Of a stretch of DNA of 32,215 bases, positions 18,608 through 32,215 are shown piece after piece. The stretch covers positions 1-32,215 of IMG/VR virus record IMGVR_UViG_3300005260_000006. One strand, 5' to 3'. Source of the stretch: a virus. The first letter of the stretch is position 1, and each line of letters starts with the position of its first letter. Made by a program: the position numbers and the translations under genes. Below the pieces are notes generated by a model that saw only the letters and a list, made by a program, of their open reading frames with translations, searched no databases and was not told the DNA's origin.

Positions 18608-18745
18608 TCAATCATCTTTAGTGCGAAACATATTCCATCTTAAGTCCGGCAGCGTTGGGTCTTTTTTTCTTAAGGTTTTGTATTGCTCTTCTTCCTTAAG
18701 ACCGGCAATAAGGCAAATGATAAACAGGATAACTAATAAAAACAT
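18608..18745 (-). CDS. antisense membrane microprotein
   Basis: A 45-aa frame on the minus strand between two plus-strand virion genes. The N-terminus is a strongly hydrophobic segment, MFLLVILFIICLIAGLK, followed by a charged tail (EEEQYKTLRKKDP) ending RTKDD. This is the build of a single-span inner-membrane peptide with a cytoplasmic or periplasmic tail. GGGAGA lies seven bases before the ATG, a near-perfect ribosome site that is unlikely by chance in an intergenic gap. It fills almost the whole 18607-18776 gap and has no visible terminator. Its function is unknown; a holin/antiholin-like, superinfection-exclusion or toxin-like peptide is possible. Confidence 0.5.
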   Translation of the reverse strand: MFLLVILFIICLIAGLKEEEQYKTLRKKDPTLPDLRWNMFRTKDD

Positions 18746-18776
18746 TTCAATATCTCCCAGTTTGCGAGGCAATTAG

Positions 18777-20435: not shown

Positions 20436-20447
20436 GGAGCATTTAGA

Positions 20448-20807
20448 ATGGCAAAGTTTTTTTCAATGACTCGAGACATAAATGGCTATAACGGCTTTGG
20501 TTTGCAATTTCCAGACTATTGTTTTTCTGCCAACTTAAAAGCCAATGTGGCGTCTACTGCGCTGACTGTGCCAGGTGATGAAACATATTGGGTGGCAATA
20601 TTTCAAATTGCGCCAGGCTCAAATGTGTTTGTTTCGGTTAATGGTACTGCAGCGGTTGCTGGCAATAGTGGCAATTTTTCAGCGGTAACGAGTGTTTATA
20701 ATCCAACCGCATTAAAGGTTAGAAACACAGACACTATTACCTGCATTACTCCTGATACTACTGCGTATGTGACGATTTCATTTTATGCGTTATCGACAAA
20801 TGGATAG
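20448..20807 (+). CDS. small virion-associated beta protein
   Basis: A 119-aa beta-rich protein beginning MAKFFSMTRDINGYNGFGL, a start seen on many small proteins beside phage fibre genes. Ser/Thr/Val-rich strands follow (NVFVSVNGTAAVAGNSGNFS; TAYVTISFYALSTNG). There is no signal peptide. AAGGAG lies before the ATG, and the spacing to the fibre gene is 12 bases, so it is cotranscribed. A decoration or fibre-cap role is inferred from position and composition. Confidence 0.6.
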   Translation: MAKFFSMTRDINGYNGFGLQFPDYCFSANLKANVASTALTVPGDETYWVAIFQIAPGSNVFVSVNGTAAVAGNSGNFSAVTSVYNPTALKVRNTDTITCITPDTTAYVTISFYALSTNG

Positions 20808-20817
20808 GGGGGGTTGA

Positions 20818-20988
20818 ATGCCATTTTCAAATAATGAATTTTTCGGAATTCTAGATAATCCATTATTGGAAAGCCCTTATTTTGAAGGCAGTAAAAATGA
20901 GCCAACTCCAACGCCAGGGGATGCTTTTATTATTACTGATAGTGTTGAGAAAATTATTGCAGATAACGGCGATTACCTGATCACATAA
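20818..20988 (+). CDS. small tail-associated protein
   Basis: A 56-aa protein too short for many gene finders. A run of seven G ends about four bases before the ATG as the ribosome site. The sequence has two parts: [12 protein letters not shown] in the N-terminal half, and an acidic C-terminal half ([20 protein letters not shown]) that resembles the ITEDG-type short repeats at the ends of phage tail proteins. The gene sits between two virion genes with short gaps. I infer a small linker or cap protein of the tail. Confidence 0.55.
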
Positions 20989-21000
20989 GGAATAAAAAAA

Positions 21001-22253
21001 TGGTCGCAGAAGTTAAAATCGCAGATCTACCTGCAGTTATTACCCCCGCACTTACAGACGCTTTCCCCATAACCGCAGGCGGAGTAACATCTAAAGAGAC
21101 ACTTTCACAAGTGCAAACTCTTTTACATGTGGCCAGCGGTTCTACGCTAGGGATTACCGGACTTACACTGAGCGGCTTAAGCGCCAGCGGATTAATTGCC
21201 ACCGATGTCTCTAAGAATCTAACAAGCTCTATATCCGGATTATCGCCCACCTTTACGGGTCTTAACTTAAGTGGATTGAGCATAAGTGGTTTAGTTGCAA
21301 CGGATGCCTCGAAAAATCTAACCAGTTCCGTATCTGGACTATCACCAGCCTTTACTGGGCTCAATCTGAGCGGACTAAATGTTAGTGGGTTGGTTGCTAC
21401 AGATGCATCGAAGAATTTAACAAGTACTGTATCTGGGCTGGCACCGGCTTTTACTGGACTTAATCTAAGCGGGCTTACTGCATCAACAATTGTTGCAACA
21501 GATGTTTCAAAGAACTTGGCCAGCATATCCTCTGTTAATAGCGCGGTTTTGGTAACTAGTAATACTGGCGTGCCAAGTTTGAGCACAACATTGCCATCAG
21601 GACTTGCGGCAACGAATTTAACACTTACCACTCCAGCACTCGGAACACCCACTGCCGGAGTCTTGACCAGTTGCACGGGGTTGCCGCTCACAACTGGTGT
21701 AACTGGTAATTTGCCAGTTGCCAATCTCAACGGTGGATCTAGCGCTTCAGCCACTACATTTTGGCGCGGTGATGCCACCTGGGCGAGTATCCCAGCTAGT
21801 AGTGGTTCTATTTATCAAACGGTAAGCACGACCCTTACCTCAGTGCAAACCACAACCTCACCAATTCCCAATGATGACACCATTCCGCAAATCACCGAAG
21901 GTGGGCAATTCCTATCGCAAGCAATTACCGCCGGAAGTGCTAGCAATATCTGGCAAATTGAAGCAGTTCTTTATTGCACCTGCACGACAAACGCTATTGC
22001 CGTGGCTTTGTTTTTAGATTCTGGCACTGACGCAATCGCGGTTGCTTCTCAGGCTGTTGCATCAGCTCCCACTGGTATTCGCGTGACTTATAGAATGACG
22101 GCAGGTGACACTAGCGCTCATACTTTTACTGTTCGCGCAGGTGGTGAAGGCACCGGAACGCCTGGATTATTTGTCAATGGTGTCTCAGGCCCGCTTAGAA
22201 AATTTGGTGGTGCCATGTTTAGTTATATCCAAATCACAGAATACAAAGCATAA
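21001..22253 (+). CDS. repeat-bearing tail fibre
   Basis: A 417-aa fibre. Residues 1-50 form an attachment domain ([19 protein letters not shown]...[11 protein letters not shown]). Residues 53-178 are three full and one partial 33-residue repeats with the core [28 protein letters not shown] phage-fibre linker ([37 protein letters not shown]) follows at about 208-262, and a C-terminal jelly-roll-like head of about 145 residues ends [11 protein letters not shown]. The whole suggests a trimeric shaft with a terminal receptor-binding domain. AAGGA lies before the ATG. A long antisense frame over the shaft is a side effect of the repeats. Confidence 0.78.
21157..21534 (+). repeat. 99-bp tandem coding repeats (fibre shaft)
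   Basis: The repeats encode 33-residue units at residues 53-85, 86-118 and 119-151, and a partial unit at 152-178. The protein copies are nearly identical, while the codons differ widely at silent positions (for example AACTTAAGTGGATTG against AATCTGAGCGGACTA). Copy number could vary by recombination, but silent divergence argues for long-term selection on the protein repeat. Confidence 0.75.
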
Positions 22254-22263
22254 GGATGCGACA

Positions 22264-22413
22264 ATGCCATTAATTAAATCTTCATCAAAGAAAGCACGGC
22301 AAAAGAATATTGCGGTCGAAATAAAATCCGGGAAGCCAATTAAGCAAGCTGTTGCAATTGGTTATTCGGTGCAGAGGCAAGCAAAGACAAATAAAAAAAG
22401 GGCTAAAAAATAG
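22264..22413 (+). CDS. small basic phage protein
   Basis: A 49-aa Lys/Arg-rich protein of a type common in phages (MPLIKSSSKKARQKNI, then EIKSGKPIKQAVAIGYSVQR, ending in a basic tail). AAGGA stands about seven bases before the ATG. It closes the fibre operon, and its stop codon lies inside the terminator stem. The family function is unknown. The pattern KSGKPxKQAVAI suggests a small nucleic-acid-binding or virion-core peptide. Confidence 0.65.
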   Translation: MPLIKSSSKKARQKNIAVEIKSGKPIKQAVAIGYSVQRQAKTNKKRAKK

Positions 22414-22424
22414 CCCTTTTTTTT
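22393..22424. terminator. bidirectional rho-independent terminator
   Basis: AAAAAAAGGGCTA (22393-22405) and TAGCCCTTTTTTTT (22411-22424) form a strong stem with A and T runs on both sides. It can end the plus-strand fibre transcript and the converging minus-strand transcript of the 379-aa gene. The plus-strand stop codon TAG is at 22411-22413 inside it. Confidence 0.88.
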
Positions 22425-22436
22425 GATTAGCCAATA

Positions 22437-23576
22437 TTAGGTAATTGGAACAATGGAATAATAAACATACCATCTAGCAGAGCCACCAGTTCCTACTGCA
22501 AACACAGCAGTGGCATTGGTATAGGTTACCGCAGCATTGCCACAAGCCGATGTTGCAAGGCCCGTTGTGGTGTTGATATTACCATTACAGCTTACAGCTG
22601 TTGAGGCTCCAAGGCCGGTAAATAAAGTCGCCGGCAAATCAGTTGAAAGGGTTGCGTAGTTGGTGCCATGGGCTGTTGCGCCATATTGCAAGTAAGCGGC
22701 GCCGCCACCAGTGTAGGCAGCTGAACCATAAATTAATTCCAAAACAAAAGAGTGAATAACAACCATCAAATTAGCACCTGGCGCTGGGATTAATTCGATA
22801 GGGGTTGTATAAGCATTTTGAATTTGGCTAAGAGTAAGCGAGCCAGTTGCATAACGCGGAAGTGTATTAGCAAATGATAATGAGCCTGCGCCATTTGAAG
22901 ACAGGGGCACTGCAATTGTGGTTGCATCGGCATTGGCACTTGCATCACTGGCGGGGGAAGTGAAGCCGGCGTCAACAATTAAGCCTGCGGTTCCACTTGC
23001 CTTAACTAAATTGCCAGAAACTAATGCGGCGGGTGCTAAAACAAAATTAGCAGTTGCTGCAGCTGGATCTGGAATGGAGACAACGCTTGCTTGACCCATT
23101 GCGGCATTGCTAATGGTGGTGACAGTGTTGCCAGTGTTAGCTACGGCGGTTAAATGTAATGAGCCTTTAGATGCGGTAGCTGGGAAGGATGCTAAATAGC
23201 CAGCTGTTCCAGATAAGCCCGCTTGAATATTGCCGCCATTAATTGCGGTTGCAGCATCTTGACCTAAGGAGCCGGTGGTGTCGGTAAATATTGCAAAATG
23301 ATTTGCGGTTGACGAGCTAACCGTACCTTGGGCTGCGAGGGTTAATACCCCGGCGGTAATGGTTGCGGCAAAGGTGCCGATGTATTGGTTTTGATCGCCA
23401 TAGTTAAATATATAAAAATCACTCGCTGAAAAATTCACGCCTTCAACCAATCCAATGCTATTTAGATAACCTGCCGTTGTGATTTGCGCATATGTATCCG
23501 TGCACTGAATTCTCACGATGCGGGGGATTATTCCAACTTGGCCAGCTGGTTCTACTGATACATTTTGAACGCTCAT
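22437..23576 (-). CDS. reverse-oriented virion or fibre-like protein
   Basis: A 379-aa protein. The frame is open 90 bases further upstream, but the ATG at 23576 has AAAGGAC seven bases before it. It is low-complexity, beta-rich and full of Ala/Thr/Ser/Gly/Asn. The middle (SLHLTAVANTGNTVTTISNA, GQASVVSIPDPAAATANFVLAP, about 135-190) matches a module repeated in many phage fibre proteins. The C-terminal about 120 residues look like a compact beta head. It is the only large virion-type gene on the minus strand, converging on the fibre operon. It is probably an alternative receptor-binding or capsid-fibre protein with its own expression control. Confidence 0.7.
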   Translation of the reverse strand: MSVQNVSVEPAGQVGIIPRIVRIQCTDTYAQITTAGYLNSIGLVEGVNFSASDFYIFNYGDQNQYIGTFAATITAGVLTLAAQGTVSSSTANHFAIFTDTTGSLGQDAATAINGGNIQAGLSGTAGYLASFPATASKGSLHLTAVANTGNTVTTISNAAMGQASVVSIPDPAAATANFVLAPAALVSGNLVKASGTAGLIVDAGFTSPASDASANADATTIAVPLSSNGAGSLSFANTLPRYATGSLTLSQIQNAYTTPIELIPAPGANLMVVIHSFVLELIYGSAAYTGGGAAYLQYGATAHGTNYATLSTDLPATLFTGLGASTAVSCNGNINTTTGLATSACGNAAVTYTNATAVFAVGTGGSARWYVYYSIVPIT

Positions 23577-23622
23577 GGTTTTGTCCTTTTTGAGATATGG
23601 AATGGATGGGGTTGCAAAATTA

Positions 23623-23651
23623 TTGCATAAATTAAAGGGCTTATATATAGT
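23623..23651 (+). promoter_or_regulatory. probable promoter of the lysis cluster
   Basis: TTGCAT (23623-23628), a 17-bp spacer and TATAGT (23646-23651) fit a sigma70-like promoter reading rightward, with a start near 23658. A 15-bp dyad, TGCAA-AATTA-TTGCA (23613-23627), overlaps the -35 box and could be an operator. The gap lies between divergent genes, so a leftward promoter for the 379-aa gene must also be near; its boxes are not clear. Confidence 0.4.
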
Positions 23652-23686
23652 TAATTGCAGTTTCACATTAAATGAGGATTAGTCAA

Positions 23687-23821
23687 ATGGCCAAAATGAA
23701 AGCACCTTGCAAAAGCCCAGCAGCCAAAATGAAAAAAGACAAAATGCCTATGGATAAAAGCCGTGGCAAAATGGATAAAATGGGCAAAGACGAAATGAAG
23801 AAAGCCAAGAAAAGGATGTAA
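23687..23821 (+). CDS. Lys/Met-rich microprotein
   Basis: A 44-aa peptide made largely of Lys (about 15) and Met (9), with short motifs such as AKMKKDKMPMDK and KMDKMGKDEMKK. GAGGA at 23674-23678, eight bases before the ATG, and a stop three bases before the next ATG support it as a real gene. The positive charge suggests it binds nucleic acid or a membrane surface. I do not know its family. It is the first gene after the probable promoter of the lysis cluster. Confidence 0.55.
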   Translation: MAKMKAPCKSPAAKMKKDKMPMDKSRGKMDKMGKDEMKKAKKRM

Positions 23822-23823
23822 GG

Positions 23824-24126
23824 ATGAGCTTGATTGATATTTCCCAAGTCTTTGTCGATCTAAAAAATAAACCAATAGAAAATAATGGCGAAAGCTTTAC
23901 TTTAAAAGACGCCCTATTAACTGCATTAATGACTGAGTTTCCAAATGAACATCAATCAGTGGATGATAAGGTTAAGCGTTTCAAGTTAGCTATTAAAATT
24001 AATTCGTCATCTTGTGAAATTGAATTAACAGCAGAAGAAATTAGTTTTCTTAAAGCAATTGTTGGTCGAGTTTTTGGTGCATTAATAGTTGGTCAAGCTT
24101 ATGACTTACTGGAACAAAAAACTTAA
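23824..24126 (+). CDS. conserved phage protein (unknown function)
   Basis: A 100-aa protein with the layout of a widespread phage family: an N-terminal strand (VFVDLKNKPIENNGESFTLKDALLTAL), a middle KVKRFKLAIKI, and a C-terminal helix (IELTAEEISFLKAIVGRVFGALIVGQAYDLLE). The family is often encoded near lysis or tail genes; its function is not established. AAGGA at 23812-23816 is well spaced. The gene overlaps the following nuclease gene by 26 bases. Confidence 0.68.
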   Translation: MSLIDISQVFVDLKNKPIENNGESFTLKDALLTALMTEFPNEHQSVDDKVKRFKLAIKINSSSCEIELTAEEISFLKAIVGRVFGALIVGQAYDLLEQKT

Positions 24127-24496
24127 AGCTCGTCGGAATATGCCTAGCGAAGCAAAAGAGCAAGAGACTCTGTTTCGCTGGGCGAATTTGCAACCCCACA
24201 TCATTCCCTATCTTATTCATATCCCTAATGGCGGCTCTCGAACTATTCATGAGGGTGCGGCTCTAAAGCGTCAAGGTGTCAAAGCAGGTGTAAGTGATTT
24301 GTTATTTGCCTATCCGGCGGCGCCTTATCATGGCCTGTGGATTGAATTAAAGCGCATAGGCGGGATTTTATCGCCAATGCAGAAGGATTGGTTGCGGCTT
24401 ATGAATCTTGTTGGCTATAAGGCTATTGTGGCTTATGGCTGGGAATCAGCGCGCGATGAAATATTAACTTATCTATCTCAATGGGAGATCCAATGA
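24101..24496 (+). CDS. VRR-NUC domain endonuclease
   Basis: A 131-aa stand-alone VRR-NUC nuclease, a PD-(D/E)xK fold. Visible elements are SEAKEQETLFRWA (about 16-28), the IPNGGSR turn, KRQGVKAGVSDLLF with active-site Asp66, and GLWIELK with Glu82 and Lys84, followed by LSPMQKDWL with Gln94. These are the hallmarks of phage VRR-NUC proteins, which cut branched or flapped DNA and may process replication or recombination intermediates before packaging. The start is uncertain: ATG 24101 overlaps the upstream gene, a TTG lies at 24089, and another ATG at 24140. None has a strong ribosome site, so coupling is likely. Confidence 0.85.
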   Translation: MTYWNKKLKARRNMPSEAKEQETLFRWANLQPHIIPYLIHIPNGGSRTIHEGAALKRQGVKAGVSDLLFAYPAAPYHGLWIELKRIGGILSPMQKDWLRLMNLVGYKAIVAYGWESARDEILTYLSQWEIQ

Positions 24497-24912
24497 ACGT
24501 AAAAGATTTGATATTCAATCATGAGGGCTTACGTCTTCATCCTTATAAAGACACTCAGGGTTATTTAACAGTTGGCATTGGTCGCAATCTAGAGGGCAAT
24601 GGCATTTCAGTTGCCGAAGCAGAATTCTTATTGGATAACGATATTAAAAATTGTGAACAACAATTGCGCGATAAATTTCCTTGGTATGACGATTTAGACG
24701 AAGTACGCAAAGCAGTAATATTGGACATGTGCTTTGAGTTTGGCATTAAGAAGTTATTAACATTTACTGGCACGTTGGGATTTATTCGCGATAAAAAATG
24801 GAAGGAAGCGGCAAACGCCATGCGTTTGAGTCTTTGGCATAGACAGGTGCCGAATAGATGTGATGAAGACGCATTAATGATGGAAACTGGCCAATGGCCG
24901 AAGGTTAAATAA
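24493..24912 (+). CDS. endolysin, T4-type lysozyme (GH24)
   Basis: A 139-aa muramidase. With the start at 24493 (overlapping the nuclease stop as ATGA, with GGGAG upstream), the catalytic triad falls at Glu11, Asp20 and Thr26, the same numbering as T4 lysozyme (HEGLRLHPYKDTQGYLTVGIGRN). The helical C-terminal lobe follows (FPWYDDLDEVRKAVILDMCFEFG). There is no signal peptide or SAR-type anchor, so release to the periplasm would need the holin encoded next. It cleaves the peptidoglycan sugar backbone at the end of infection. Confidence 0.92.
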   Translation: MNVKDLIFNHEGLRLHPYKDTQGYLTVGIGRNLEGNGISVAEAEFLLDNDIKNCEQQLRDKFPWYDDLDEVRKAVILDMCFEFGIKKLLTFTGTLGFIRDKKWKEAANAMRLSLWHRQVPNRCDEDALMMETGQWPKVK

Positions 24913-25271
24913 TGGACCCCATTACCGCTATTGGAAATGCTATTACCGCGATTATTGACAGAGTTATTCCAGACCCAGCTCAAGCTCAGCAATTAAAGCA
25001 GCAGATAGTAGATAGCCAAGCGCAGGTTGTTATTGCTGAGGCTAAGGGCGAGAGCTGGATCCAACGTTCATGGCGTCCGATAACAATGTTAAGCTTTGTT
25101 GGCATTATCGTTAATAATTATTTGCTTTACCCTTATTTAAGTTTGTTCTGGCACAGTGCGCCAAGTTTGCCTATTCCGCCTGACATGTGGGAGTTATTGA
25201 AAATTGGCATTGGTGGTTATATTGTTAGCCGTGGTGGGGAGAAGATGATCAAGACCTGGGCTACTAAATGA
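24912..25271 (+). CDS. holin, GTA_holin_3TM-like
   Basis: A 119-aa protein. After an N-terminal helical part with DPAQAQQLKQQIV, the motif SWIQRSWRPITMLSFVGIIVNNYLL begins the membrane region. A second hydrophobic stretch (YPYLSLFWH) and a final helix (ELLKIGIGGYIVSRGGEKMIKTW) follow. This order and the RPITML, GGYIVSRGGEK elements fit the GTA_holin_3TM group. It would form the lesion that lets the lysozyme out. The start overlaps the endolysin stop (TAATG), and its own stop overlaps the next gene (ATGA). Confidence 0.8.
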   Translation: MDPITAIGNAITAIIDRVIPDPAQAQQLKQQIVDSQAQVVIAEAKGESWIQRSWRPITMLSFVGIIVNNYLLYPYLSLFWHSAPSLPIPPDMWELLKIGIGGYIVSRGGEKMIKTWATK

Positions 25272-25555
25272 AAAACCCAGACAACATCACAAGAATTTAT
25301 GTCCCTTTAGAAATATACAATGAGCTAAAAGACATTTGCTTTCGCTTAGAAAATATAGAAGATTCGCTACATCATCTCGATGAAACGGTTAATGAAGTAA
25401 GGGATAAGCAGGAGAACGACCATAACGAACTTAATAAAATAGTTAATGTCCGAGATTTCTTTTTTAAGTTTACATTGCCAGCTTTATTAGCTGCTTTCTC
25501 TGTTGGTTTGTTTTTTTCAAAAGTAATAGCGCATTTGAAGGTTATGGGCAGTTAA
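25268..25555 (+). CDS. coiled-coil single-span membrane protein, XhlA-like
   Basis: A 95-aa protein. Residues about 14-60 form a heptad-rich coiled coil (YNELKDICFRLENIEDSLHHLDETVNEVRDKQ) and 65-85 a hydrophobic span (FFKFTLPALLAAFSVGLFFSKV). This resembles XhlA-type holin partners, or a membrane-anchored spanin-like subunit, although no lipobox or periplasmic Pro-rich Rz1 gene is visible. It is coupled to the holin gene and is the last plus-strand gene. Its stop overlaps the stop of the converging minus-strand operon by four bases. Confidence 0.65.
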   Translation: MKNPDNITRIYVPLEIYNELKDICFRLENIEDSLHHLDETVNEVRDKQENDHNELNKIVNVRDFFFKFTLPALLAAFSVGLFFSKVIAHLKVMGS

Positions 25556-25890
25556 TAGGCATCTTTAAGGGCAAGGAATAATTTCATTATTAATTTTTCT
25601 AAATCGCTTTTTTCAAAAACCAAGAAAATTTCACAATCATCAAGCATCCCGTCTTGTGCAATTGCATCTTCCATTGGGTAAGAGGCTTTGTTATCCAGCA
25701 TTTCCCCTAATCTTTCCATTGCTTCATGATCGCTCGACGCCTCGATCCAATTAAATCTTTGATAGTAAAAATTACCATGGCCGCAAGACATGCGCTTTAT
25801 ACAAATATCTTCAAATTTAAAAATTGTACCCTTGCAAAAAACAGTACCCACGGGAAGATTTAAGAATTCATGTTTAGGATAAATTCTCAA
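25552..25890 (-). CDS. conserved phage accessory protein
   Basis: A 112-aa protein starting at TTG, with AAGGTG four to five bases before it; no suitable ATG is nearby. The opening IYPKHEFLNLPVGTVFCKGTIFKFEDICIK has the form of a common phage family (EFxxLPxGTxFCKG) whose function is not known. The C-terminus ends in a helix, LEKLIMKLFLALKDAY. It is the last gene of the minus-strand operon and meets the lysis cassette tail to tail with no terminator between them. Confidence 0.65.
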   Translation of the reverse strand: MRIYPKHEFLNLPVGTVFCKGTIFKFEDICIKRMSCGHGNFYYQRFNWIEASSDHEAMERLGEMLDNKASYPMEDAIAQDGMLDDCEIFLVFEKSDLEKLIMKLFLALKDAY

Positions 25891-25893
25891 TTT

Positions 25894-26028
25894 TCACCTT
25901 TCCGCTTTTTTTGCTCTTAGACGCCTAATTACATAGCGACAAGTATATCCAAGGCAATAATCTTCAAAAAACAAATCTCCAACATGAGTAACAAGTGTAA
26001 ATTTTTTGCATTTGGGGCATTTATTCAT
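25894..26028 (-). CDS. zinc-knuckle microprotein
   Basis: A 44-aa protein with CPKC at residues 4-7 and two later Cys (DYCLGYTC), giving a four-Cys zinc-ribbon layout, then a strongly basic tail (RYVIRRLRAKKAER). GGGG stands upstream. It overlaps the end of the previous gene by eight bases and ends three bases before the TTG start of the next. Probably binds nucleic acid or modulates a host enzyme; function unknown. Confidence 0.55.
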   Translation of the reverse strand: MNKCPKCKKFTLVTHVGDLFFEDYCLGYTCRYVIRRLRAKKAER

Positions 26029-26332
26029 GATTGCTTATCCCCGGAACTTTATCGCAACTCATCCAATATGAAATGTCATTAAGCGCCATGCATGACCCAT
26101 AAGAATAATCGCCAATTAAAACAAACCTATGGTCCTCTTGCGGATGCAGAACAAAAAAACAATGTTGAGGGATTTTACGCCTTTTATTCCACGCCATGAC
26201 ATAGGTGCGATTTTTGGGCAGCATAGCTGGGTATTTATGCCATCTCCCCCCATTGGTCATTTTGGGAATGCCAATATCTGCAAAATAATCTAAGTCTTCT
26301 TGTGAAAAGGAATATGTTTTATTATCGCCCAT
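26021..26332 (-). CDS. accessory protein, unknown function
   Basis: A 103-aa soluble protein. The N-terminal EDLDYFADIGIP is followed by a Trp/Tyr/His-rich core (HKYPAMLPKNRTYVMAWNKRRKIPQHCFFVLHPQEDHRF) and NDISYWMSCDKVPG. The last part faintly recalls DUF551-type phage proteins, but not enough to assign. GAGGA precedes the ATG, which overlaps the upstream stop (TAATG). Confidence 0.6.
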   Translation of the reverse strand: MGDNKTYSFSQEDLDYFADIGIPKMTNGGRWHKYPAMLPKNRTYVMAWNKRRKIPQHCFFVLHPQEDHRFVLIGDYSYGSCMALNDISYWMSCDKVPGISNHE

Positions 26333-26790
26333 TACTTATCCTCTACCTGCACCTTTAAATTATAAATCTTGGCATCAATTTCAAAAACATCATCAGCCAT
26401 TGAATCAAAGCCGCAATTTAATGTAGACATTTCCATCTTTAGATTTGCTATCTCTTCCTGAAGCACAATCAATGAACCATGTAGGGATATTAACTTTTCT
26501 TTTGCTTCTTCCTGCCATTCAATCATCGCATCAAGTCTCTTTTCAATGCGCCCAATTGATTTATTATTGCAATCCGCGGCATGATTATGCGCCTTGATCA
26601 AGAAATCAAATCCCTTCGCATGCTCATCAACTGCCTGACAAACATCTTTTAGCTTTCTTGCAATGCTTTCTTGTATTTTATTTTGTCGCGCAATAACTTC
26701 CCTATAAGTTGGCGAATGAATGCCCCCATTATGAGTGGTCAATGGAGCGAAAAGCTCTTCCAGTTCAAAATCAAGTTTATTTGTTGCCAT
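26332..26790 (-). CDS. coiled-coil accessory protein
   Basis: A 152-aa protein. The frame extends upstream, but the ATG at 26790, with AGGA eight bases before it, is preferred because the longer version would run deep into the preceding gene. It is mostly helical with heptad-like stretches (IARQNKIQESIARKLKDVCQAVDEHAKGFDFL; LISLHGSLIVLQEEIANLKMEMSTL), suggesting a long coiled-coil oligomer. No membrane segment or enzyme motif is visible. It overlaps the upstream gene by 14 bases. Confidence 0.62.
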   Translation of the reverse strand: MATNKLDFELEELFAPLTTHNGGIHSPTYREVIARQNKIQESIARKLKDVCQAVDEHAKGFDFLIKAHNHAADCNNKSIGRIEKRLDAMIEWQEEAKEKLISLHGSLIVLQEEIANLKMEMSTLNCGFDSMADDVFEIDAKIYNLKVQVEDK

Positions 26791-27043
26791 TCCAATATCC
26801 TGTATCTTTTTGCTTGCGAAATTTATGCTCACCGCGCGGTTGAAATTTTGAATCAAAACGTCTGTTATAATGACTGGCCCTTGGGTCTTTATCATCAACC
26901 AAAAGCAAATCATTGCTCTGCTGGTTAATAATATCATTATGGAGCGCGCGCATTGTCTCCGAAGGTATTGAAAGCGCTGTCATATGTCGAACCTCTGCCA
27001 ACACCTCTATTAGCAAAAGCAATTGTTTTTCAGTTATTAACAT
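26777..27043 (-). CDS. accessory protein, unknown function
   Basis: An 88-aa protein. A hydrophobic N-terminal helix (KQLLLLIEVLAEVRHM) is followed by a helix with INQQSND and a basic C-terminus (PRASHYNRRFDSKFQPRGEHKFRKQK) that could bind nucleic acid. The ATG has a GAGGGGAAGG stretch upstream inside the end of the preceding gene, which it overlaps by seven bases. I do not recognise a family. Confidence 0.6.
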   Translation of the reverse strand: MLITEKQLLLLIEVLAEVRHMTALSIPSETMRALHNDIINQQSNDLLLVDDKDPRASHYNRRFDSKFQPRGEHKFRKQKDTGYWNGNK

Positions 27044-27243
27044 TCCTTCCCCTCGCTATTTCTTCTAACACAAAAATGATGATGATTTGAGCATAAATAA
27101 TTGGTATATCTTATATTTGGATCATGTCGATGGTACTTTCCATCCTCATCATAATACTCATAAGTCGTCATTGCAGTGGTAGTGGTAGCACCTATCTCTA
27201 TAGTGCTTTTAAGGCCAAGTTTTAAACATTCCGGACATTTCAT
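27037..27243 (-). CDS. zinc-ribbon-like accessory protein
   Basis: A 68-aa protein with CPEC at 3-6 and a second pair, C51 and C58 (NYLCSNHHHFCVRR), plus several His. This is a zinc-ribbon layout with an intervening beta hairpin. The C-terminal end is charged and ends in Cys. It starts directly next to the stop of the upstream gene. A role in binding nucleic acid or host transcription factors is possible but unproven. Confidence 0.62.
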   Translation of the reverse strand: MKCPECLKLGLKSTIEIGATTTTAMTTYEYYDEDGKYHRHDPNIRYTNYLCSNHHHFCVRRNSEGKEC

Positions 27244-27492
27244 TTATAGGCGTTCCTCAATTTTTTCTACCTTTCCAACCAACCAATTAACCCTATAAGC
27301 TAGGGCATCTAATTGCTTTAGAGTCACTAGTAAATCAATGCAAAGACGTTCACAATCTGTTGCAGGAACAAACGCTGGCGTTTCTAGGGTTTTAATTCTC
27401 GCCTCTAATTCATTAAGCCTATTTGCAAATAACAAGGCAAGACGCTCCTCATCAGTTGCGCATTCTTCAAAATCAATATCTAGCTTTTTCAT
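27244..27492 (-). CDS. small helical accessory protein
   Basis: An 82-aa helical protein with acidic N-terminus (DIDFEECATDEERLALLFANRLNELEARIKTLE) and a second amphipathic helix (LCIDLLVTLKQLDALAYRVNWLVGKVEKIEERL), suggesting a helical hairpin or dimer. It abuts both neighbours with no gap. No family recognised. Confidence 0.6.
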   Translation of the reverse strand: MKKLDIDFEECATDEERLALLFANRLNELEARIKTLETPAFVPATDCERLCIDLLVTLKQLDALAYRVNWLVGKVEKIEERL

Positions 27493-27726
27493 TTAGCCAA
27501 CCTTATTTAAGGCTGGAAGCTCAGCCGCATATTTATCAAACATTTCCCTATATTGCGTTTCATATCGCTGTAGCAATGCAAGCTCAATTCGATATTGCGC
27601 AAGAAACTCTATAGGGGTTTCGGCGCCGACATTCACCATGCCAAGGCCTTGCACAAACTTTCTTTGCGGCTCCAGAACCTCAATGCAAAACTTTTTCAGC
27701 TTTTGATATTTGGTTTCATGCGTCAT
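27493..27726 (-). CDS. small helical accessory protein
   Basis: A 77-aa protein, mostly helical and charged (YQKLKKFCIEVLEPQRKFVQGLG; EFLAQYRIELALLQRYETQYREMFDKYAAEL). It abuts its neighbours exactly. I do not recognise a family, and no enzyme motif is visible. Confidence 0.58.
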   Translation of the reverse strand: MTHETKYQKLKKFCIEVLEPQRKFVQGLGMVNVGAETPIEFLAQYRIELALLQRYETQYREMFDKYAAELPALNKVG

Positions 27727-27981
27727 TTAATTCGCCTTGCTCAGTTTGTTTTCTTTCACATCATTAACAATGCATTTAAAAACATGACCCATAAAATCTG
27801 GCCCCGCATCGGTATCTAAGAATGCGCGCACCAACATCATTGCCGCAGCGCTTAGATAAGCTTTATTCCACACGCCATTACGTCTGCCCCCAGCAAGACC
27901 TGGATGTTTTTCTATCTGCTTTCTTAAGCGCATAGACATCTTTTCCTCGATCTCAGCAGCTATTTCATTAATCTCGCCCAT
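27727..27981 (-). CDS. accessory protein, unknown function
   Basis: An 84-aa protein. The ATG at 27981 overlaps the upstream stop (TGATG), and GGAG stands eight bases before it; an adjacent TTG one codon earlier is less likely. It begins with an acidic helix (EINEIAAEIEEKMSMRLRKQIEKHPG), then GGRRNGVWNKAYLSAAAMMLVRAFLD and a C-terminal helix. Soluble; no family recognised. Confidence 0.6.
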   Translation of the reverse strand: MGEINEIAAEIEEKMSMRLRKQIEKHPGLAGGRRNGVWNKAYLSAAAMMLVRAFLDTDAGPDFMGHVFKCIVNDVKENKLSKAN

Positions 27982-28190
27982 CAAATCGTCTCCACATCTT
28001 TTTTGTTTAAAACTCTAAAAGGCGGCAGTGGTAACCCTTTGCCTCTTTGGCGGCTTAACCATTCCTCACTTACAGCCAAATTATCACCGTGACGTTCAAA
28101 TTTAATAAATGTATTAAGCCAATGCTTCCAGTTTTCTGGGACATTAGTATTTAATGGTTTGTAGCGACCGTAAACTATTTTTGATTTCAC
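27981..28190 (-). CDS. accessory protein, unknown function (GTG start)
   Basis: A 69-aa protein starting at GTG, which overlaps the upstream stop (GTGA). AGGTG lies about ten bases before it. It contains ENWKHWLNTFIKFERHGDNLAVSEEWLSRQRGKGLPLPPFRVL; the WLSRQR segment and basic residues suggest a nucleic-acid contact, but I do not recognise a family. Confidence 0.55.
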   Translation of the reverse strand: MKSKIVYGRYKPLNTNVPENWKHWLNTFIKFERHGDNLAVSEEWLSRQRGKGLPLPPFRVLNKKDVETI

Positions 28191-28369
28191 AATTTGAAGG
28201 CACCTGTTATTCGATATATTTTTGCCATTCTCACAATCGCACCACGACCTTTTAAAATTCGTGAATCCTCATTTGGCCAATTGCACCAAGCACAAATTCC
28301 TTCCGGCACCATCATGCAATAGTTTTCTAATTTGCATCGTGGGCACCGATAAAGATAATTAGCGCTCAT
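28187..28369 (-). CDS. four-Cys zinc-ribbon protein
   Basis: A 60-aa protein with CPRC (9-12) and CAWC (26-29), separated by a short hairpin, forming a typical four-Cys zinc ribbon. A single extra Cys lies at 18. The basic C-terminus (ILKGRGAIVRMAKIYRI) may contact nucleic acid. The start overlaps the upstream stop (TAATG). It is the clearest zinc protein in this operon. Confidence 0.66.
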   Translation of the reverse strand: MSANYLYRCPRCKLENYCMMVPEGICAWCNWPNEDSRILKGRGAIVRMAKIYRITGAFKL

Positions 28370-28557
28370 TAAAACTCTCCTGCCTTAGCTTTGAGCTTTT
28401 GAATGTCATGCGCCATGTTTTGTATTAATTCATGATGTAGTTGCAATTGATCTTCTAGTGAATCAATTTTAATGCAAGCATCCATGAGCTTTCCTATTAA
28501 GAAAAGAAATGTATCTTTTCCTATTGACTCACTAATATCAAAGCTAAGCTTACTCAT
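28369..28557 (-). CDS. small coiled-coil accessory protein
   Basis: A 62-aa protein. The frame is open upstream, but the ATG at 28557 overlaps the previous stop (ATGA) and has GAGG upstream. It has a hydrophobic helix (DTFLFLIGKLMDACIKI) and a heptad region (LEDQLQLHHELIQNMAHDIQKLKAKAG), so a dimeric coiled coil is likely. Function unknown. Confidence 0.6.
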   Translation of the reverse strand: MSKLSFDISESIGKDTFLFLIGKLMDACIKIDSLEDQLQLHHELIQNMAHDIQKLKAKAGEF

Positions 28558-28772
28558 TTCTGAACCTCTTCCATTATTTCTGGAAAATAGAACGGCAATG
28601 CGTCTGCGCTCATTTTCAACATTAAGCAATATCCAAATCCTTTAAAGCCTTGAACAACAACCTCATGGCCGTCTGTCATTTGAGAATTTACTATTGCGCA
28701 TTCTTTTTCAGCATCATTTTTGCTATCGGTCATGTAATTATGGTATTTATGTTGAAATTCATCACGATTCAT
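28554..28772 (-). CDS. accessory protein, unknown function
   Basis: A 72-aa soluble protein. It begins MNRDEFQHKYHNYMTDSKNDAEKECA; the middle is a beta stretch (GHEVVVQGFKGFGYCLML), and the end is acidic (FYFPEIMEEVQK). AAGGAG lies rather far (11 bases) before the ATG, inside the upstream gene, which it overlaps by 11 bases. No family recognised. Confidence 0.58.
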   Translation of the reverse strand: MNRDEFQHKYHNYMTDSKNDAEKECAIVNSQMTDGHEVVVQGFKGFGYCLMLKMSADALPFYFPEIMEEVQK

Positions 28773-29058
28773 TTTTTATTTTGCTCCTTATTGCCATGAT
28801 TTCATTTTCAAGTTCATCAAGAAATTCCTTTATTACTTCAACTTCAACTAAAGGTGGTAATAGTTTCTCAACCGAGGCTAAATCATCTCGCCCAATATCT
28901 CCAGATAAAAACAATGCCACATCATGCAAAGCAGTTCCTATAGAATCCAGAAATTTTGCAAATGATAGCAGCATAATATCATTGCCAACTCTTTGCTTAA
29001 TTTCATATGCGGCATCTCTTACTTTGGCAAAAACATCATCTAATGATTCACCGCTCAT
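28762..29058 (-). CDS. helical accessory protein, unknown function
   Basis: A 98-aa, all-helical acidic protein (LDDVFAKVRDAAYEIKQRVGNDIMLLSFAKFLDSIGTALHDVALFLSGDIG; LVEVEVIKEFLDELENEIMAIRSKI). No membrane or catalytic motif is visible. It overlaps both neighbours by about 11 bases. Probably a helical bundle that binds a partner protein; this is inference. Confidence 0.6.
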   Translation of the reverse strand: MSGESLDDVFAKVRDAAYEIKQRVGNDIMLLSFAKFLDSIGTALHDVALFLSGDIGRDDLASVEKLLPPLVEVEVIKEFLDELENEIMAIRSKIKNES

Positions 29059-29326
29059 TATTTATTTCCTCATTAACAAATGCGACAAATTTTGGCGGTC
29101 GCTTTTCAAGCATTTCTATCATTTTGCGAATGTCTTGCCCGCACAAATCTTTATATAACACCCATATGCGGGAACCTGTTATGCCCATTTTATCAAGGCA
29201 GAGAATAATGCTTGCCCCATCAGGATGAGCTGATAACTGCGCTATGACATTAAGCGCGCCAGGATTACCTTTAGCCATTTTTATAGATGCCTCAAAAAGA
29301 GTTTCTCCCCCACTTAAAACGCTCAT
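29048..29326 (-). CDS. conserved phage protein with SRIWVLYKDLCGQD motif
   Basis: A 92-aa protein. The core GNPGALNVIAQL, SIILCLDKMGITGSRIWVLYKDLCGQDIRKMIEMLE follows a pattern I recognise from uncharacterised proteins of several phages (ALNVL, then a short loop, then GSRIWxLYKDxCGxD). The family has no established function. The start overlaps the upstream membrane microprotein stop (ATGA). Confidence 0.68.
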   Translation of the reverse strand: MSVLSGGETLFEASIKMAKGNPGALNVIAQLSAHPDGASIILCLDKMGITGSRIWVLYKDLCGQDIRKMIEMLEKRPPKFVAFVNEEINNER

Positions 29327-29451
29327 TTTTTGACCTCTTTCTGTAGCACGTCAAATACTTTGCAAACAAGTGTGGGAAACTCATAAGATAAGTAACCTAT
29401 GCCGACAATGGTTGCAATAGAACCTATTAATAAGCCGGATATGAAATGCAT
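29323..29451 (-). CDS. membrane microprotein
   Basis: A 42-aa protein with one hydrophobic span (FISGLLIGSIATIVGIGYLSY, about 3-23) and a charged C-terminal tail (VFDVLQKEVKK). GGAG stands nine bases before the ATG, which overlaps the stop of the upstream gene (TAATG), and its own stop overlaps the next start. The double overlap makes it very likely to be real despite its length. Confidence 0.6.
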   Translation of the reverse strand: MHFISGLLIGSIATIVGIGYLSYEFPTLVCKVFDVLQKEVKK

Positions 29452-29645
29452 TATTTTGACTCCTTAAATTTATGTTTATTCCACCACTCATCAAGTGCTG
29501 GATTTTCTTTAAAATTATAGTTCAGCCTTTCCAAGATAGAGCTAACAGAACACAATAAAGATATTAATCGTGCATTATCTTCAAACAATAATTGTTCTTT
29601 CTGTGTATCAAATTCTCTGCCCCATGGCGGCTCATAACATGGCAT
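29451..29645 (-). CDS. small accessory protein, unknown function
   Basis: A 64-aa soluble protein beginning MPCYEPPWGREFDTQKEQLLFEDNA, then a helix (RLISLLCSVSSILERLNYNF) and a Trp-containing end (LDEWWNKHKFKESK). AAGAGGAAG lies upstream. The WWNKH-type ending is common in small phage proteins. No family assigned. Confidence 0.6.
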   Translation of the reverse strand: MPCYEPPWGREFDTQKEQLLFEDNARLISLLCSVSSILERLNYNFKENPALDEWWNKHKFKESK

Positions 29646-29647
29646 CG

Positions 29648-29755
29648 TTATTTCTTCCTCTTGTTAAATTTAAAAATAAAATATCCCATTAAAAAAGCCC
29701 CGAAAATCATTCCCACCATAAACATTTCGATTACCCCCGTGATTGATATCAACAT
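29648..29755 (-). CDS. membrane microprotein
   Basis: A 35-aa frame with one hydrophobic span (MFMVGMIFGAFLMGYFIF) and a basic tail (KFNKRKK). The first ATG (29755) directly abuts the upstream stop and has GGGGG nine bases before it. A second in-frame ATG at 29725 also has GGGGG upstream, so a 25-aa form is possible. It fills the gap between two neighbours exactly. Confidence 0.48.
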   Translation of the reverse strand: MLISITGVIEMFMVGMIFGAFLMGYFIFKFNKRKK

Positions 29756-29944
29756 TTAAGTTAACCCCCTAAACATTAATATCAAATGATAAGCCGGCGC
29801 ACTAAGACATGCCGACTGAAGTATCAAATTACCAATTATCGCCCCGAATAACTCAGATCGCCTGTTAGCAAACTTAATCAATGCCTCAACCCAAAGCCCC
29901 AGGAGAAATATAAACGCAAAAACATTTAACATGTCGATTAACAT
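29756..29944 (-). CDS. small membrane protein
   Basis: A 62-aa protein with two hydrophobic stretches (LNVFAFIFLLGLWVEALIKF and IIGNLILQSACLSAPAYHLILMF) joined by a charged loop, ANRRSELF. A two-span inner-membrane hairpin is likely. It abuts its neighbours with TAAATG junctions. It lies in a run of membrane microproteins; a superinfection-exclusion or envelope-modifying role is a guess. Confidence 0.6.
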   Translation of the reverse strand: MLIDMLNVFAFIFLLGLWVEALIKFANRRSELFGAIIGNLILQSACLSAPAYHLILMFRGLT

Positions 29945-30226
29945 TTATTTACCTTCCCCGTCTGGATAAATTATATAAGACTTCCCAGATTTCCCTGCCG
30001 TTGCCTGCAAAATCTTTTCTTGGGTGCTCGGTAATTCAGATAATTCTTGATGGGGCAAAATATGCCCTAGTCTCTGCGCTTTAATTTCAGCCAGCCTAGA
30101 AACGCTATCTACATTTGCCTCATCAATGGCCTTCATTACTTTTTTATGGCTTCTAACCATATAGACAACAAACCCACCCATCAATATTACCCAGGGAACA
30201 CATGCAACAAACAAAATAAATTCCAT
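29945..30226 (-). CDS. single-span membrane protein
   Basis: A 93-aa protein with an N-terminal hydrophobic span (FILFVACVPWVILMGGFVVYMV, about 3-24), then a positively charged stretch (RSHKKVMK) and a soluble helical tail of about 60 residues ending YIIYPDGEGK. By the positive-inside rule the tail is cytoplasmic. AGGAG supports the start. Function unknown. Confidence 0.62.
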   Translation of the reverse strand: MEFILFVACVPWVILMGGFVVYMVRSHKKVMKAIDEANVDSVSRLAEIKAQRLGHILPHQELSELPSTQEKILQATAGKSGKSYIIYPDGEGK

Positions 30227-30243
30227 AGCTCACTCCTGATAAA

Positions 30244-30501
30244 TTAAATGTCGTCTTTGCGCTCTTCCCTTGATTTTATTAATTGCGTAACTTGGTATTT
30301 TATTAGCGCCTTGTCGAACTCAAATTTTTCTGACAAAAGAGTTTCAAATTGCACGGCTATATAAAACGCCTCTTGGCAATCCTCTAAATAATTCTTATTA
30401 TTTGCGCATGTGGCCTTTGAAAGGCAATGCATAAATTTTTTGCTTAAATCTTGATATCGCAGCTGAAAGTATAGAGCCTGATCTTGATGTTCTTTTAGCA
30501 T
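30244..30501 (-). CDS. small helical accessory protein
   Basis: An 85-aa, mostly helical, charged protein (QALYFQLRYQDLSKKFMHCLSKATC; EDCQEAFYIAVQFETLLSEKFEF; ALIKYQVTQLIKSREERKDDI). GGTGGG lies close before the ATG, and the start overlaps the upstream gene by seven bases. No family recognised. Confidence 0.58.
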   Translation of the reverse strand: MLKEHQDQALYFQLRYQDLSKKFMHCLSKATCANNKNYLEDCQEAFYIAVQFETLLSEKFEFDKALIKYQVTQLIKSREERKDDI

Positions 30502-30842
30502 TTCCCACCATCAAACTTTTGAATAAATTCCTCATAAGAATAAACCTCATTTTCGGATACACAAAGCTTGGCGCCGGTCACAAGTTGATAAAATGGCATA
30601 ATCACATAAGCGCGAGGGTCAAGCGAAACTTCTTTAACTTTGGCAACCCACCCGCGCTCATTAATAACAATATCCCCTACCTTAAACTTTGGCTTTGGCG
30701 GAGACAGCTCATCAATCAAATCATTTATTCGCTCATTTATTTCTCTAAAAATTTTTACAGCGATTGAAGAACATTCTTCAACTTTATAATAATAGCGAAG
30801 GCTTTCAAGTATCTTAATAACTTCCTCATTGGTCTTTCCCAT
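30495..30842 (-). CDS. accessory protein with helical N-term and SH3-like C-term
   Basis: A 115-aa protein. The first 50 residues are helical (EEVIKILESLRYYYKVEECSSIAVKIFREINERINDLIDEL). From about 51 the text PPKPKFKVGDIVINERGWVAKVKEVSLDPRAYVIMPF reads as a small beta barrel of the SH3/KOW type used by many phage and host proteins to bind RNA, DNA or proteins. GGAG precedes the start. A possible internal promoter lies just upstream. Confidence 0.65.
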   Translation of the reverse strand: MGKTNEEVIKILESLRYYYKVEECSSIAVKIFREINERINDLIDELSPPKPKFKVGDIVINERGWVAKVKEVSLDPRAYVIMPFYQLVTGAKLCVSENEVYSYEEFIQKFDGGKC

Positions 30843-30890
30843 AGCTCATCTCCAGTAAATTAATGTGGGCTCATAAAATGCTATTTTACC

Positions 30891-30924
30891 CAATGGGTTT
30901 GATTATATAGCTAAGCCCCCATTG
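30891..30924 (-). promoter_or_regulatory. possible internal promoter flanked by inverted repeat
   Basis: On the minus strand a perfect TATAAT lies at 30907-30902 in the only sizeable gap of the operon (30843-30925). CAATGGG (30891-30897) and CCCATTG (30918-30924) form a 7-bp dyad centred on this -10 box. No good -35 box is found 16-18 bp upstream, so activity may need an activator, or the match may be chance. Confidence 0.35.
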
Positions 30925-30925
30925 A

Positions 30926-31189
30926 TTATTCTTTACCCTCAATTGCCAAATGTTTCATCGTCCACATAAGCGCATTCTCAATTTCAGTCAGCGCAATTGA
31001 CAGCTCTCGACTTCTTCCTAGCGACTCAATCTTTCGATGAAAGGCAATAAATTCACTTCTAATATCCGCCATCTTCTTTACTGCCTCAGGATTGATTTTG
31101 CCAATATATTCTAAGTGCGCCACCCTACGTCTCCAACCAAATATTAAAATTACGCCCGCAACTGCTAATGCCAACCACTGCGGCCACAT
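30926..31189 (-). CDS. membrane-anchored helical protein next to vWA protein
   Basis: An 87-aa protein with an N-terminal span (WPQWLALAVAGVILIFGW), a basic stop-transfer (RRR) and a cytoplasmic helical tail (AVKKMADIRSEFIAFHRKIESLGRS; ELSIALTEIENALMWTMKHL). The start overlaps the stop of the vWA gene (TAATG), so the two are translationally linked and may work together, for example as membrane anchor and metal-dependent adaptor. Function unknown. Confidence 0.63.
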   Translation of the reverse strand: MWPQWLALAVAGVILIFGWRRRVAHLEYIGKINPEAVKKMADIRSEFIAFHRKIESLGRSRELSIALTEIENALMWTMKHLAIEGKE

Positions 31190-31833
31190 TAGCTAGCGCT
31201 CACGCCATGAACAAAAGAACCCATTACCGATTTTAAAAATGTAGTCTGCTCAAGGCGCATGACATGAAAAATATCAAAGTCTCTAGGGTTCTTGGCTTCT
31301 AAGTCGTCATGAAGATTATCAAGATATTGTTGCAGCCCTCGATCAATTGTCCCCACGGTTAACAACACAACATTAAATTCATCTTCTGATTTTATTTCAT
31401 TAGCAATTTTCACAAGAATATTAAGCACGGGCAATCTAGCTGTTGGCTCCCCATCAGTAAACACCAGCATCACGGTTCCAGGGTGAATCTCGCCCGCGGC
31501 TTCCATTTCTCTTTTCTTTTCAAGATGAATTGCATAAGCAGATTTAATAGCTAAATCTAAATTGGTAAAGCCTTCAAACGCTACTGAATCAAGGGCTGAA
31601 TTAACCTTCTCTAAAGTTGAGTCAGGGTAAACGTGAACATTCTCGCCAAACAATAATATTGTTGGGCCGTGTGGATCGTATTCCTCTGCTGTCTTGATAA
31701 ACTGTTTAAACTTTTCCAACATATATTTATAACGAGAACTATTCCCGCAAAGTGGATCAGCCATCGTCATTGAATTGGAAATATCTCCCGCAAGAATATA
31801 TTCTTTATTTGGATTAACTTCTAAAGTGCTCAT
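31189..31833 (-). CDS. von Willebrand factor A (vWA) domain protein
   Basis: A 214-aa single-domain vWA protein. The metal-ion-dependent adhesion site is complete: DISNS at 17-21 (DxSxS), Thr90 in GFTNLD, and Asp127 in VFTDGEP. The Rossmann-type strands (EYILAGDIS; TILLFGENV; TVMLVFTDG; FNVVLLTVGT) are clear. There is no signal peptide, so it acts in the cytoplasm, as TerY-type vWA proteins do. These domains bind protein partners through a divalent metal. No MoxR ATPase partner is seen; the next gene is a membrane protein. AAGGA stands about ten bases upstream. Confidence 0.85.
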   Translation of the reverse strand: MSTLEVNPNKEYILAGDISNSMTMADPLCGNSSRYKYMLEKFKQFIKTAEEYDPHGPTILLFGENVHVYPDSTLEKVNSALDSVAFEGFTNLDLAIKSAYAIHLEKKREMEAAGEIHPGTVMLVFTDGEPTARLPVLNILVKIANEIKSEDEFNVVLLTVGTIDRGLQQYLDNLHDDLEAKNPRDFDIFHVMRLEQTTFLKSVMGSFVHGVSAS

Positions 31834-31846
31834 TTTTATTATTTCC

Positions 31847-32167
31847 TTATAGCAAAGTTTTGATTAATTGACGCAGCAAATGATTTTGTATTTCCACTTC
31901 GTGAAGTCTTCGCTCTATCACCATGGATGGTGGCGCCATCATAGGCTCAGTAGCAAGTTCATTTGCAGATAATTTTTCAATTGGCTTGGAGTCTTTTGTT
32001 GCCGACTTTAAGCGCACCATTCCACTATTCTTTCTTTCTTCAGATTTCCACTTTGAAATGGCGCTTAACGAGACTTCATAATTATTTGCTACATCTTTCG
32101 CTGACTCTCCATTCGCGATTGCTGCTAAAACATACCCTTTTGTTTCTTTAGATACTCTTTTCCCCAC
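31847..32167 (-). CDS. transposase-type HTH protein (IS3 OrfA-like fold)
   Basis: A 106-aa protein. The GTG at 32167 with AAAGGGG six bases before it is preferred; the frame is open to the window edge. Residues about 5-40 (VSKETKGYVLAAIANGESAKDVANNYEVSLSAISKWKSEE) form a helix-turn-helix of the transposase family-8/IS3 OrfA type. The C-terminal region (VIERRLHEVEIQNHLLRQLIKTLL) is a leucine-zipper-like helix, also as in OrfA. No OrfB integrase or terminal repeats are present, so it is more likely a domesticated regulator or DNA-binding protein leading this operon than an active IS. A longer ATG start at 32215 cannot be excluded. Confidence 0.72.
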   Translation of the reverse strand: MGKRVSKETKGYVLAAIANGESAKDVANNYEVSLSAISKWKSEERKNSGMVRLKSATKDSKPIEKLSANELATEPMMAPPSMVIERRLHEVEIQNHLLRQLIKTLL

Positions 32168-32215
32168 AATAGACCCCTTTGTTAAGTTAAAATTAAAAAC
32201 AAGAATCAATACCAT

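Follow-up and report, generated by a model that had tools for sequence, protein, structure and literature searches.

The window analyzed here, the whole 32,215-base IMG/VR virus record IMGVR_UViG_3300005260_000006, ends in a minus-strand run of 25 small, tightly packed genes (25552–32167; g25 to g1 in the direction of transcription), among which g23 encodes an Acb2/Tad1-type hairpin protein that is most likely anchored in the inner membrane. With a probability of about 0.6, we read this run as the promoter-distal genes of a leftward, probably early region in a P22-like podovirus, laid out like the PL operon of phage lambda and carrying g23 as a membrane-anchored Acb2-type protein. In this model, a divergent control region would drive a recombination-type block, followed by Y-like RNAs with a Ro60-type TROVE protein and then by coupled accessory genes, which would form a fast-turnover zone of host-facing small proteins and meet the late lysis cassette head-on. 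The hairpin of g23, exposed on the cytoplasmic face, would capture cyclic-oligonucleotide alarm signals close to membrane effectors and keep them sequestered. Metagenomes are the only known source of this P22-like podovirus. Its capsid protein has eight genome hits, of which just one belongs to a named isolate, a Legionella maceachernii contig (44%). Its window encodes a P22-like portal (22–24% identity to phage records) and, on the plus strand, a DnaD/helicase-type replication block, terminase, capsid and tail genes and then the lysis genes; positions 14000–32215 gave no megablast match among 50,697 phage records.

The 25 consecutive open reading frames (ORFs; 35–214 aa, median 85 aa) cover 98.2% of 25552–32167, and the dense run described in an earlier note on this DNA is real. 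Unbiased ORF tiling of the same interval fills 99.4% of the minus strand and 46.7% of the plus strand, compared with a mean of 39.9% and a maximum of 51.3% in 100 dinucleotide shuffles. At 23 of its 24 junctions the spacing is within −20 to +20 nt, and in 13 cases it is precisely −4, −1 or 0 (ATGA, TAATG or abutting). The note had spoken of hardly any gaps, and indeed a single real one was found, 83 nt between g23 and g22 (30843–30925). An AGGA, GGAG or GAGG motif stands upstream of 15/25 starts, compared with 9–10% of the other ATG/GTG/TTG codons on the same strand. The start of g25 is the GTG at 32167, while g4 and g12 probably start at 26790 and 28557 rather than at the longest-ORF positions 26937 and 28629. 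Chance ORFs in a non-coding stretch might be suspected, given that most of the ORFs are short and without relatives; however, the tiling against shuffles and the enriched ribosome-binding motifs refute this explanation, and the third-position substitution bias in g24 and g25 described below also speaks against it, so that its probability is practically nil.

By hairpin homology, there are good grounds to place g23 in a counter-defence family of cyclic-nucleotide sponges. The protein matches PF24729 at 1.4e-11 (44.8 bits, cut-off 27; the copy in a sister contig described below reaches 44.0 bits), and a profile built from g23 and its relatives matches the PDB entries 9ptq ("Acb2 homolog 43"), 7uq2 (T4 Vs.4) and 8kbh and 7uav (Tad1); a PDB sequence search with g23 alone returned nothing relevant. 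Across an alignment of 26 sequences, residues S60-R61-E62, S64, A66, T68, E71, M75, W76 and K79 do not vary, and the conserved hairpin core reads SRE-x5-T-x2-E-x3-MW. The AlphaFold2 (AF2) model consists of three helices (4–30, 34–56 and 61–84; pLDDT 86.6) and shows the expected two-helix hairpin. g23 has in common with Acb2 (PaMx33 gp24, T4 Vs.4) the phage-encoded two-helix hairpin with its invariant SRE/T/E/MW/K core, whereas the canonical N-terminal segment of Acb2 is replaced by a hydrophobic helix and RRR. With Tad1 (Thoeris anti-defence 1) it shares the C-terminal hairpin but lacks the N-terminal beta-sheet domain, which ruled out an assignment as Tad1.

The N-terminus of g23 is unusual (MWPQWLALAVAGVILIFGWRRR), being hydrophobic at about residues 5–19 and then continuing with RRR. 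In the sister copy, the changes within this helix (A9V, V13I, G18C) are conservative, and each keeps or raises hydrophobicity. A comparable N-terminal helix was found in 0 of 80 relatives fetched from viral contigs. According to the positive-inside rule, basic residues flanking a membrane helix mark its cytoplasmic side; the hairpin is therefore predicted to be cytoplasmic, and the most likely reading of g23 is an Acb2/Tad1-type protein anchored in the inner membrane, with predicted insertion and topology. Two of the 80 relatives (L029 and L069, both at ~6001) are instead Acb2-hairpin ORFs that read without a stop into a C-terminal holin-like membrane protein; these are possible natural membrane fusions in the orientation opposite to that of g23.

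The block does not begin at g25. The sister contig L004, part of record IMGVR_UViG_3300005258_000008, matches window 22576–30247 at 99.4% identity and 30839–32198 at 94.9%, and it reaches 6.3 kb further upstream, continuing the minus-strand direction. The beginning of the run, earlier described as an operon, has to be moved beyond the end of the window. In the order of transcription, the sister encodes an AAA_24 ATPase (1.6e-8), a protein resembling single-stranded-DNA-binding proteins (SSB/DUF669-like, named by position and resemblance, with no Pfam match), an HNH-like protein, Sipho_Gp157 (4.4e-33), TROVE (5e-14) and three small ORFs, and then enters the g25–g1 block. A further sister contig, L001, when reverse-complemented, shares an overlap of exactly 99 bases with the start of L004. 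Since this is the overlap expected between adjacent contigs of a k = 99 assembler, the join is likely, if not proven, and the two are probably adjacent assembly-graph nodes of one phage of ~39 kb. L001 carries an HTH_3 regulator on the opposite strand (5.2e-14), together with a promoter match (TTGACA-17-TAATAT, 10/12) shortly before the first leftward gene. With its divergent regulator, promoter match and leftward recombination genes, the region of ~13 kb is laid out like the lambda PL operon. It would extend from the divergent control region to the lysis cassette, with the 25 genes as its distal, probably early, part.

The PL (early left) operon of lambda combines recombination genes with small genes directed against the host, among them ral and kil. 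Once L001 and L004 are included, the elements of this layout are all found in the podovirus: divergence from a Cro/CI-like regulator region, leftward recombination genes, a subsequent series of small, mostly dispensable and putatively host-facing ORFs, and an orientation antiparallel to the late genes. All genes differ, however, the coupling is far denser in the phage block, and Y-RNA/TROVE and von Willebrand factor A (vWA) components are added. Moreover, lambda PL has known N-dependent sites, whereas the phage region contains an internal terminator-like hairpin and no recognised integrase. Within the region, scans for sigma-70 promoters and for terminators showed no excess over shuffles, and an Rfam scan of the window region gave no match. 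The possible stem-loop in the 83-nt gap is not significant as a fold (z = 0.0 in the window, no better than shuffles, and −1.7 in the sister).

The virion and lysis genes run in the direction opposite to that of the block, which shares its orientation with the recombination-type module of the sister. At the distal end of the block, g1 and the convergent lysis-cassette gene have overlapping stop codons, so that early and late transcripts would run into each other if made at the same time; judging from this layout, expression of the block is probably early. Alternatively, the genes could be late or virion-associated small genes read from the other strand, for which a weak match of g4 to a tail-needle coiled coil (phrog_1219, E = 0.017) could be cited. 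We rejected this very improbable explanation because the strand is opposite to that of all identified structural and lysis genes and because no structural family, the kind of match the earlier note had named as telling against its proposal, was found above the cut-off.

Window and sister are identical from g1 to g19. Further upstream, g20 has diverged (13 synonymous and 17 nonsynonymous changes) and g21–g22 are missing from the sister through a clean 616-bp indel (window 30848–30233 versus L004 7696/7697). The indel junction falls within AATTTA(C/T)(T/C)(G/A)GGAG(A/T)(T/G)GAGCTATG, a leader that recurs in front of both g20 and g22. The presence and absence of g21–g22 together with the diverged g20 is the pattern of exchangeable accessory cassettes. 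In the relatives compared for turnover, which have terminase, portal and capsid in common at 38–55%, convincing matches are limited to g23, g24 and the upstream genes; the exceptions are the N-terminus of g5, a hand-picked pair at 34–38% with small ORFs of the relatives L099 and L094, and g1 with its distant relatives. These comparisons make a strong case for the block being a fast-turnover accessory zone. Among 26 capsid-related phage records, Acb2 hairpins occur in 2 at E <= 0.001 (one over the cut-off) and TROVE in 0, and both are therefore sporadic accessories. A further search of 30 relatives by major capsid protein found nothing, in a set that contained no positive control, so that it shows little.

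If the run were simply a delayed-early or middle operon for replication and regulatory helpers, with no host-directed function, this would fit its position downstream of the recombination genes in the sister and the helix-turn-helix (HTH) protein g25; helpers of this kind also typically include coiled-coil and zinc-ribbon-like proteins. However, fast turnover and an Acb2/Tad1 hairpin gene would be unusual for core replication helpers, and g21–g22 are altogether missing in the sister; we regard this explanation as improbable.

Several observations weigh against a lambda PL-like early region with a membrane-anchored sponge. Between the recombination genes and the Y-RNA/TROVE/small-gene part, the sister contains a terminator-like hairpin followed by U7 (L004 3420–3475; −21 kcal/mol, z = −2.7); a single transcript would therefore need antitermination or a second promoter, and the region may not be one simple transcript. 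For about 20 of the 25 genes, neither a family above the cut-off nor a relative in the nearest phage genomes was detected. As for g23, the 19-residue hydropathy maximum of its helix is borderline (1.59, just under the usual 1.6), and a Foldseek search of its model against the PDB gave no significant match and was uninformative for a small helical protein of this kind. In addition, the canonical Acb2 N-terminal segment (SDxRTxNNxMRHxYRVL) is absent, so that g23 may have changed or lost ligand binding. Helix 4–30 takes its place, and only Y28 aligns, with the RHxY tyrosine. Published summaries describe this segment as helping to form the cyclic GMP-AMP (cGAMP) pocket. Because this segment is missing, we predict that the ligand range of g23 may differ.

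Altogether, the earlier proposal of an early anti-host or anti-defence region is partly supported: the layout and the turnover favour it strongly and one gene does so by homology to a counter-defence family, but just 1/25 genes is so assigned, and the early timing is deduced from the layout. Homology backs an anti-defence role for g23, and for the other genes such a role is plausible from their position; new anti-defence genes are often recognised by their proximity to known ones. Ligand binding by g23 and its action against cyclic-oligonucleotide-based antiphage signalling systems (CBASS) are predictions, and the roles of the genes other than g23 and g24 are putative. Acb2 proper is a soluble sponge that blocks CBASS and, as a hexamer, binds cyclic di- and trinucleotides. 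A more far-reaching and tentative idea is that g23 might represent a new sponge architecture, namely an inner-membrane-tethered Acb2-type hairpin intercepting signals at membrane effectors, and might be the first recognised component of an early counter-defence operon with rapid gene exchange; the coupled microproteins of this operon (of which five are likely membrane proteins and three have CxxC) might include further inhibitors.

Besides g23, the vWA protein g24 is the most clearly assignable member of the run. Related phages conserve this metal-binding vWA scaffold and have it beside TROVE or TerC. Its match to PF00092 (4.5e-5) is just above the cut-off, and the residues of the metal-ion-dependent adhesion site (MIDAS; D17, S19, S21, T90 and D127) are invariant across 7 phage proteins. 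The AF2 model (pLDDT 82.5, pTM 0.84) matches many vWA folds in Foldseek (E about 1e-6, prob 1.00). Relatives with 44–53% identity are present in five other phage records, and the codon changes relative to the sister are 17 synonymous and 3 nonsynonymous. The gene adjoins TROVE in the sister, G003 and G005. In the relative G001, it is followed by a TerC-family membrane protein instead of TROVE (L099 9717–11125; PF03741, 5.2e-44); TerC was not seen in the window phage. No such vWA protein was found by tblastn against phage and plasmid records or in bacterial genomes, and PDB sequence searches with g24 or its profile gave nothing relevant. For g25, the HTH match lies just under the cut-off. Compared with the sister, this gene has 16 synonymous and 7 nonsynonymous codon changes, with 22/29 changes at third positions, and it is a probable regulator. 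Apart from g23, g24 and this weak HTH, the earlier statement that the run has almost no recognisable families proved right.

TROVE proteins as well as Ter systems with TerC and vWA have been reported in jumbo phages, for which a role of Ter genes in superinfection competition was proposed (PMC7824862). g24 resembles these systems in being a phage vWA protein, located beside TerC in G001; it differs in that no sequence link to TerF or TerY could be established (the plasmid search was empty), and its partner in the window phage is TROVE, not TerC. Another possible explanation would be a stress or membrane module, in which a Ter-like vWA protein, Ro60/Y-RNA and membrane microproteins fortify the infected cell or exclude superinfecting phages, while counter-defence is incidental and g23 a repurposed hairpin. 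The neighbours of the vWA gene (TerC in G001, TROVE in three phages), the membrane proteins g16, g18, g19, g20 and probably g23, and the jumbo-phage proposal are in line with it. We nevertheless consider it unlikely, since g24 could not be assigned to TerF or TerY, TerD/TerB/TelA or kinase partners were not seen among the listed ORFs, and Acb2-like hairpins are known counter-defence proteins.

Table 1 Features of the minus-strand block and the adjoining lysis cassette in the window. Hydropathy values are 19-residue maxima (KD19).
Feature	Position	Strand	Description	Match or value
lysozyme	24481-24912	+		PF00959 2.7e-11
holin	24912-25271	+		phrog_3427 3.2e-28
lysis-cassette protein	25268-25555	+	small transmembrane protein, convergent with g1	
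g1	25552-25890	-	112 aa, last gene	phrog_11827 5.4e-9, unknown function
g2	25894-26028	-	one CxxC	
g3	26021-26332	-		
g4	26332-26790 (corrected start)	-	152 aa, coiled-coil	weak coiled-coil matches only
g5	26777-27043	-		no family above cut-off
g6	27037-27243	-	one CxxC	no family above cut-off
g7	27244-27492	-		no family above cut-off
g8	27493-27726	-		no family above cut-off
g9	27727-27984	-		no family above cut-off
g10	27981-28190	-		no family above cut-off
g11	28187-28369	-	60 aa, two CxxC motifs, zinc-ribbon-like	no match above cut-off
g12	28369-28557 (corrected start)	-	soluble	no family above cut-off
g13	28554-28772	-	soluble	no family above cut-off
g14	28762-29058	-	soluble	no family above cut-off
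g15	29048-29326	-	soluble	no family above cut-off
g16	29323-29451	-	membrane microprotein	1.97
g17	29451-29645	-	small protein	phrog_34941 5.6e-7, function unknown
g18	29648-29755	-	membrane microprotein	2.01
g19	29756-29944	-	membrane microprotein	2.22
g20	29945-30226	-	93 aa, N-terminal transmembrane helix, then basic RSHKK and cytoplasmic-type tail	2.57
g21	30244-30501	-	cassette with g22, absent from sister phage	
g22	30495-30842	-	cassette with g21, absent from sister phage	
gap	30843-30925	-	possible stem-loop, AATGGGGGCTT...GAGCCCCCATT	perfect in sister L004
g23	30926-31189	-	87 aa, Acb2/Tad1 hairpin domain (residues 34-82) behind N-terminal hydrophobic helix	PF24729
g24	31189-31833	-	214 aa, vWA protein, intact MIDAS (D17-x-S19-x-S21, T90, D127)	PF00092
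g25	31847-32167	-	106 aa, HTH DNA-binding-like protein (transposase/TerS-type HTH)	HTH_Tnp_1 PF01527 8.5e-5, just under cut-off

Searches against NCBIfam and PADLOC gave nothing useful. Two candidate assignments were rejected, that of g22 as a ParE-type toxin (E = 0.076, below the cut-off) and that of g11 as the antirestriction protein Ral (PF11058 E = 0.052, phrog_1055 0.065, not significant). Distant relatives of g1 (26–37%) occur in Mycobacterium, Cellulophaga and Gordonia phages, and viral contigs yielded only the sister copy; no relatives of g17 were found in phage records. Elsewhere in the window, a VRR-NUC nuclease gene (24089–24496, plus strand; PF08774 1.1e-6) directly precedes the lysozyme gene, beside which it is also found in G001, and a 211-aa acidic ORF of no convincing family (2782–3417, minus strand) is isolated inside the plus-strand replication block.

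Related phages carry known or likely counter-defence genes in comparable blocks. In L094, a 70-aa Acb2-like gene (5941–6153; PF24729 4.5e-11) is located between the AAA_24 and DUF669-like genes and overlaps the next start. In L005, a NAMPT-like gene (PF04095 1.2e-43, PF18127 1.5e-9) lies downstream of TROVE-vWA; we infer that it may be linked to phage reconstitution of nicotinamide adenine dinucleotide (NAD+). The NAMPT-like phosphoribosyltransferase is adjoined by a PNKP-type HAD phosphatase in L005 (9756–11647, by Pfam) and in L106 (3070–4961, by resemblance), a pair that possibly serves NAD+ repair in these two TROVE-vWA phages.

Clusters of Y-RNA-like RNAs were observed directly upstream of TROVE in L004 (3944–4188), L005 (~5990–6490) and L114 (3104–3220, minus strand). 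The YrlA model RF02553 matches at E = 9.3e-8 in G005 and 0.0033 in L005 (6092–6222), both under the Rfam gathering score, and L004 contains three TGGCGTAGA-N7-ACTTC copies, with 0 expected by chance. Several of these Y-like RNAs differ from YrlA and may form a new Y-RNA-like group. TROVE/Ro60 modules with Y RNA (YrlA) are described from bacteria and jumbo phages (PMC7824862, PMC7790460, PMC7765460), and the related phages resemble them in having Y-like RNAs directly upstream of TROVE; here, however, the module belongs to a 40-kb podovirus, has several tandem Y-like copies and a separate vWA partner, and lies outside the window. Four tRNA genes directly follow TROVE in L106 (866–1185), and a tRNA-Thr gene follows vWA in L005 (8700–8774).

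The block brings together about 20 unassigned small phage genes in one coupled run with an Acb2-family hairpin and a vWA protein, and the near-identical sister provides a natural presence/absence pair for g21–g22. If the interpretation of g23 is true, a membrane-tethered Acb2 hairpin would be a new use of a known sponge. Protection would then be predicted to act preferentially against membrane-acting CBASS effectors, and, owing to the missing canonical N-terminal pocket element, the ligand range would possibly be altered.

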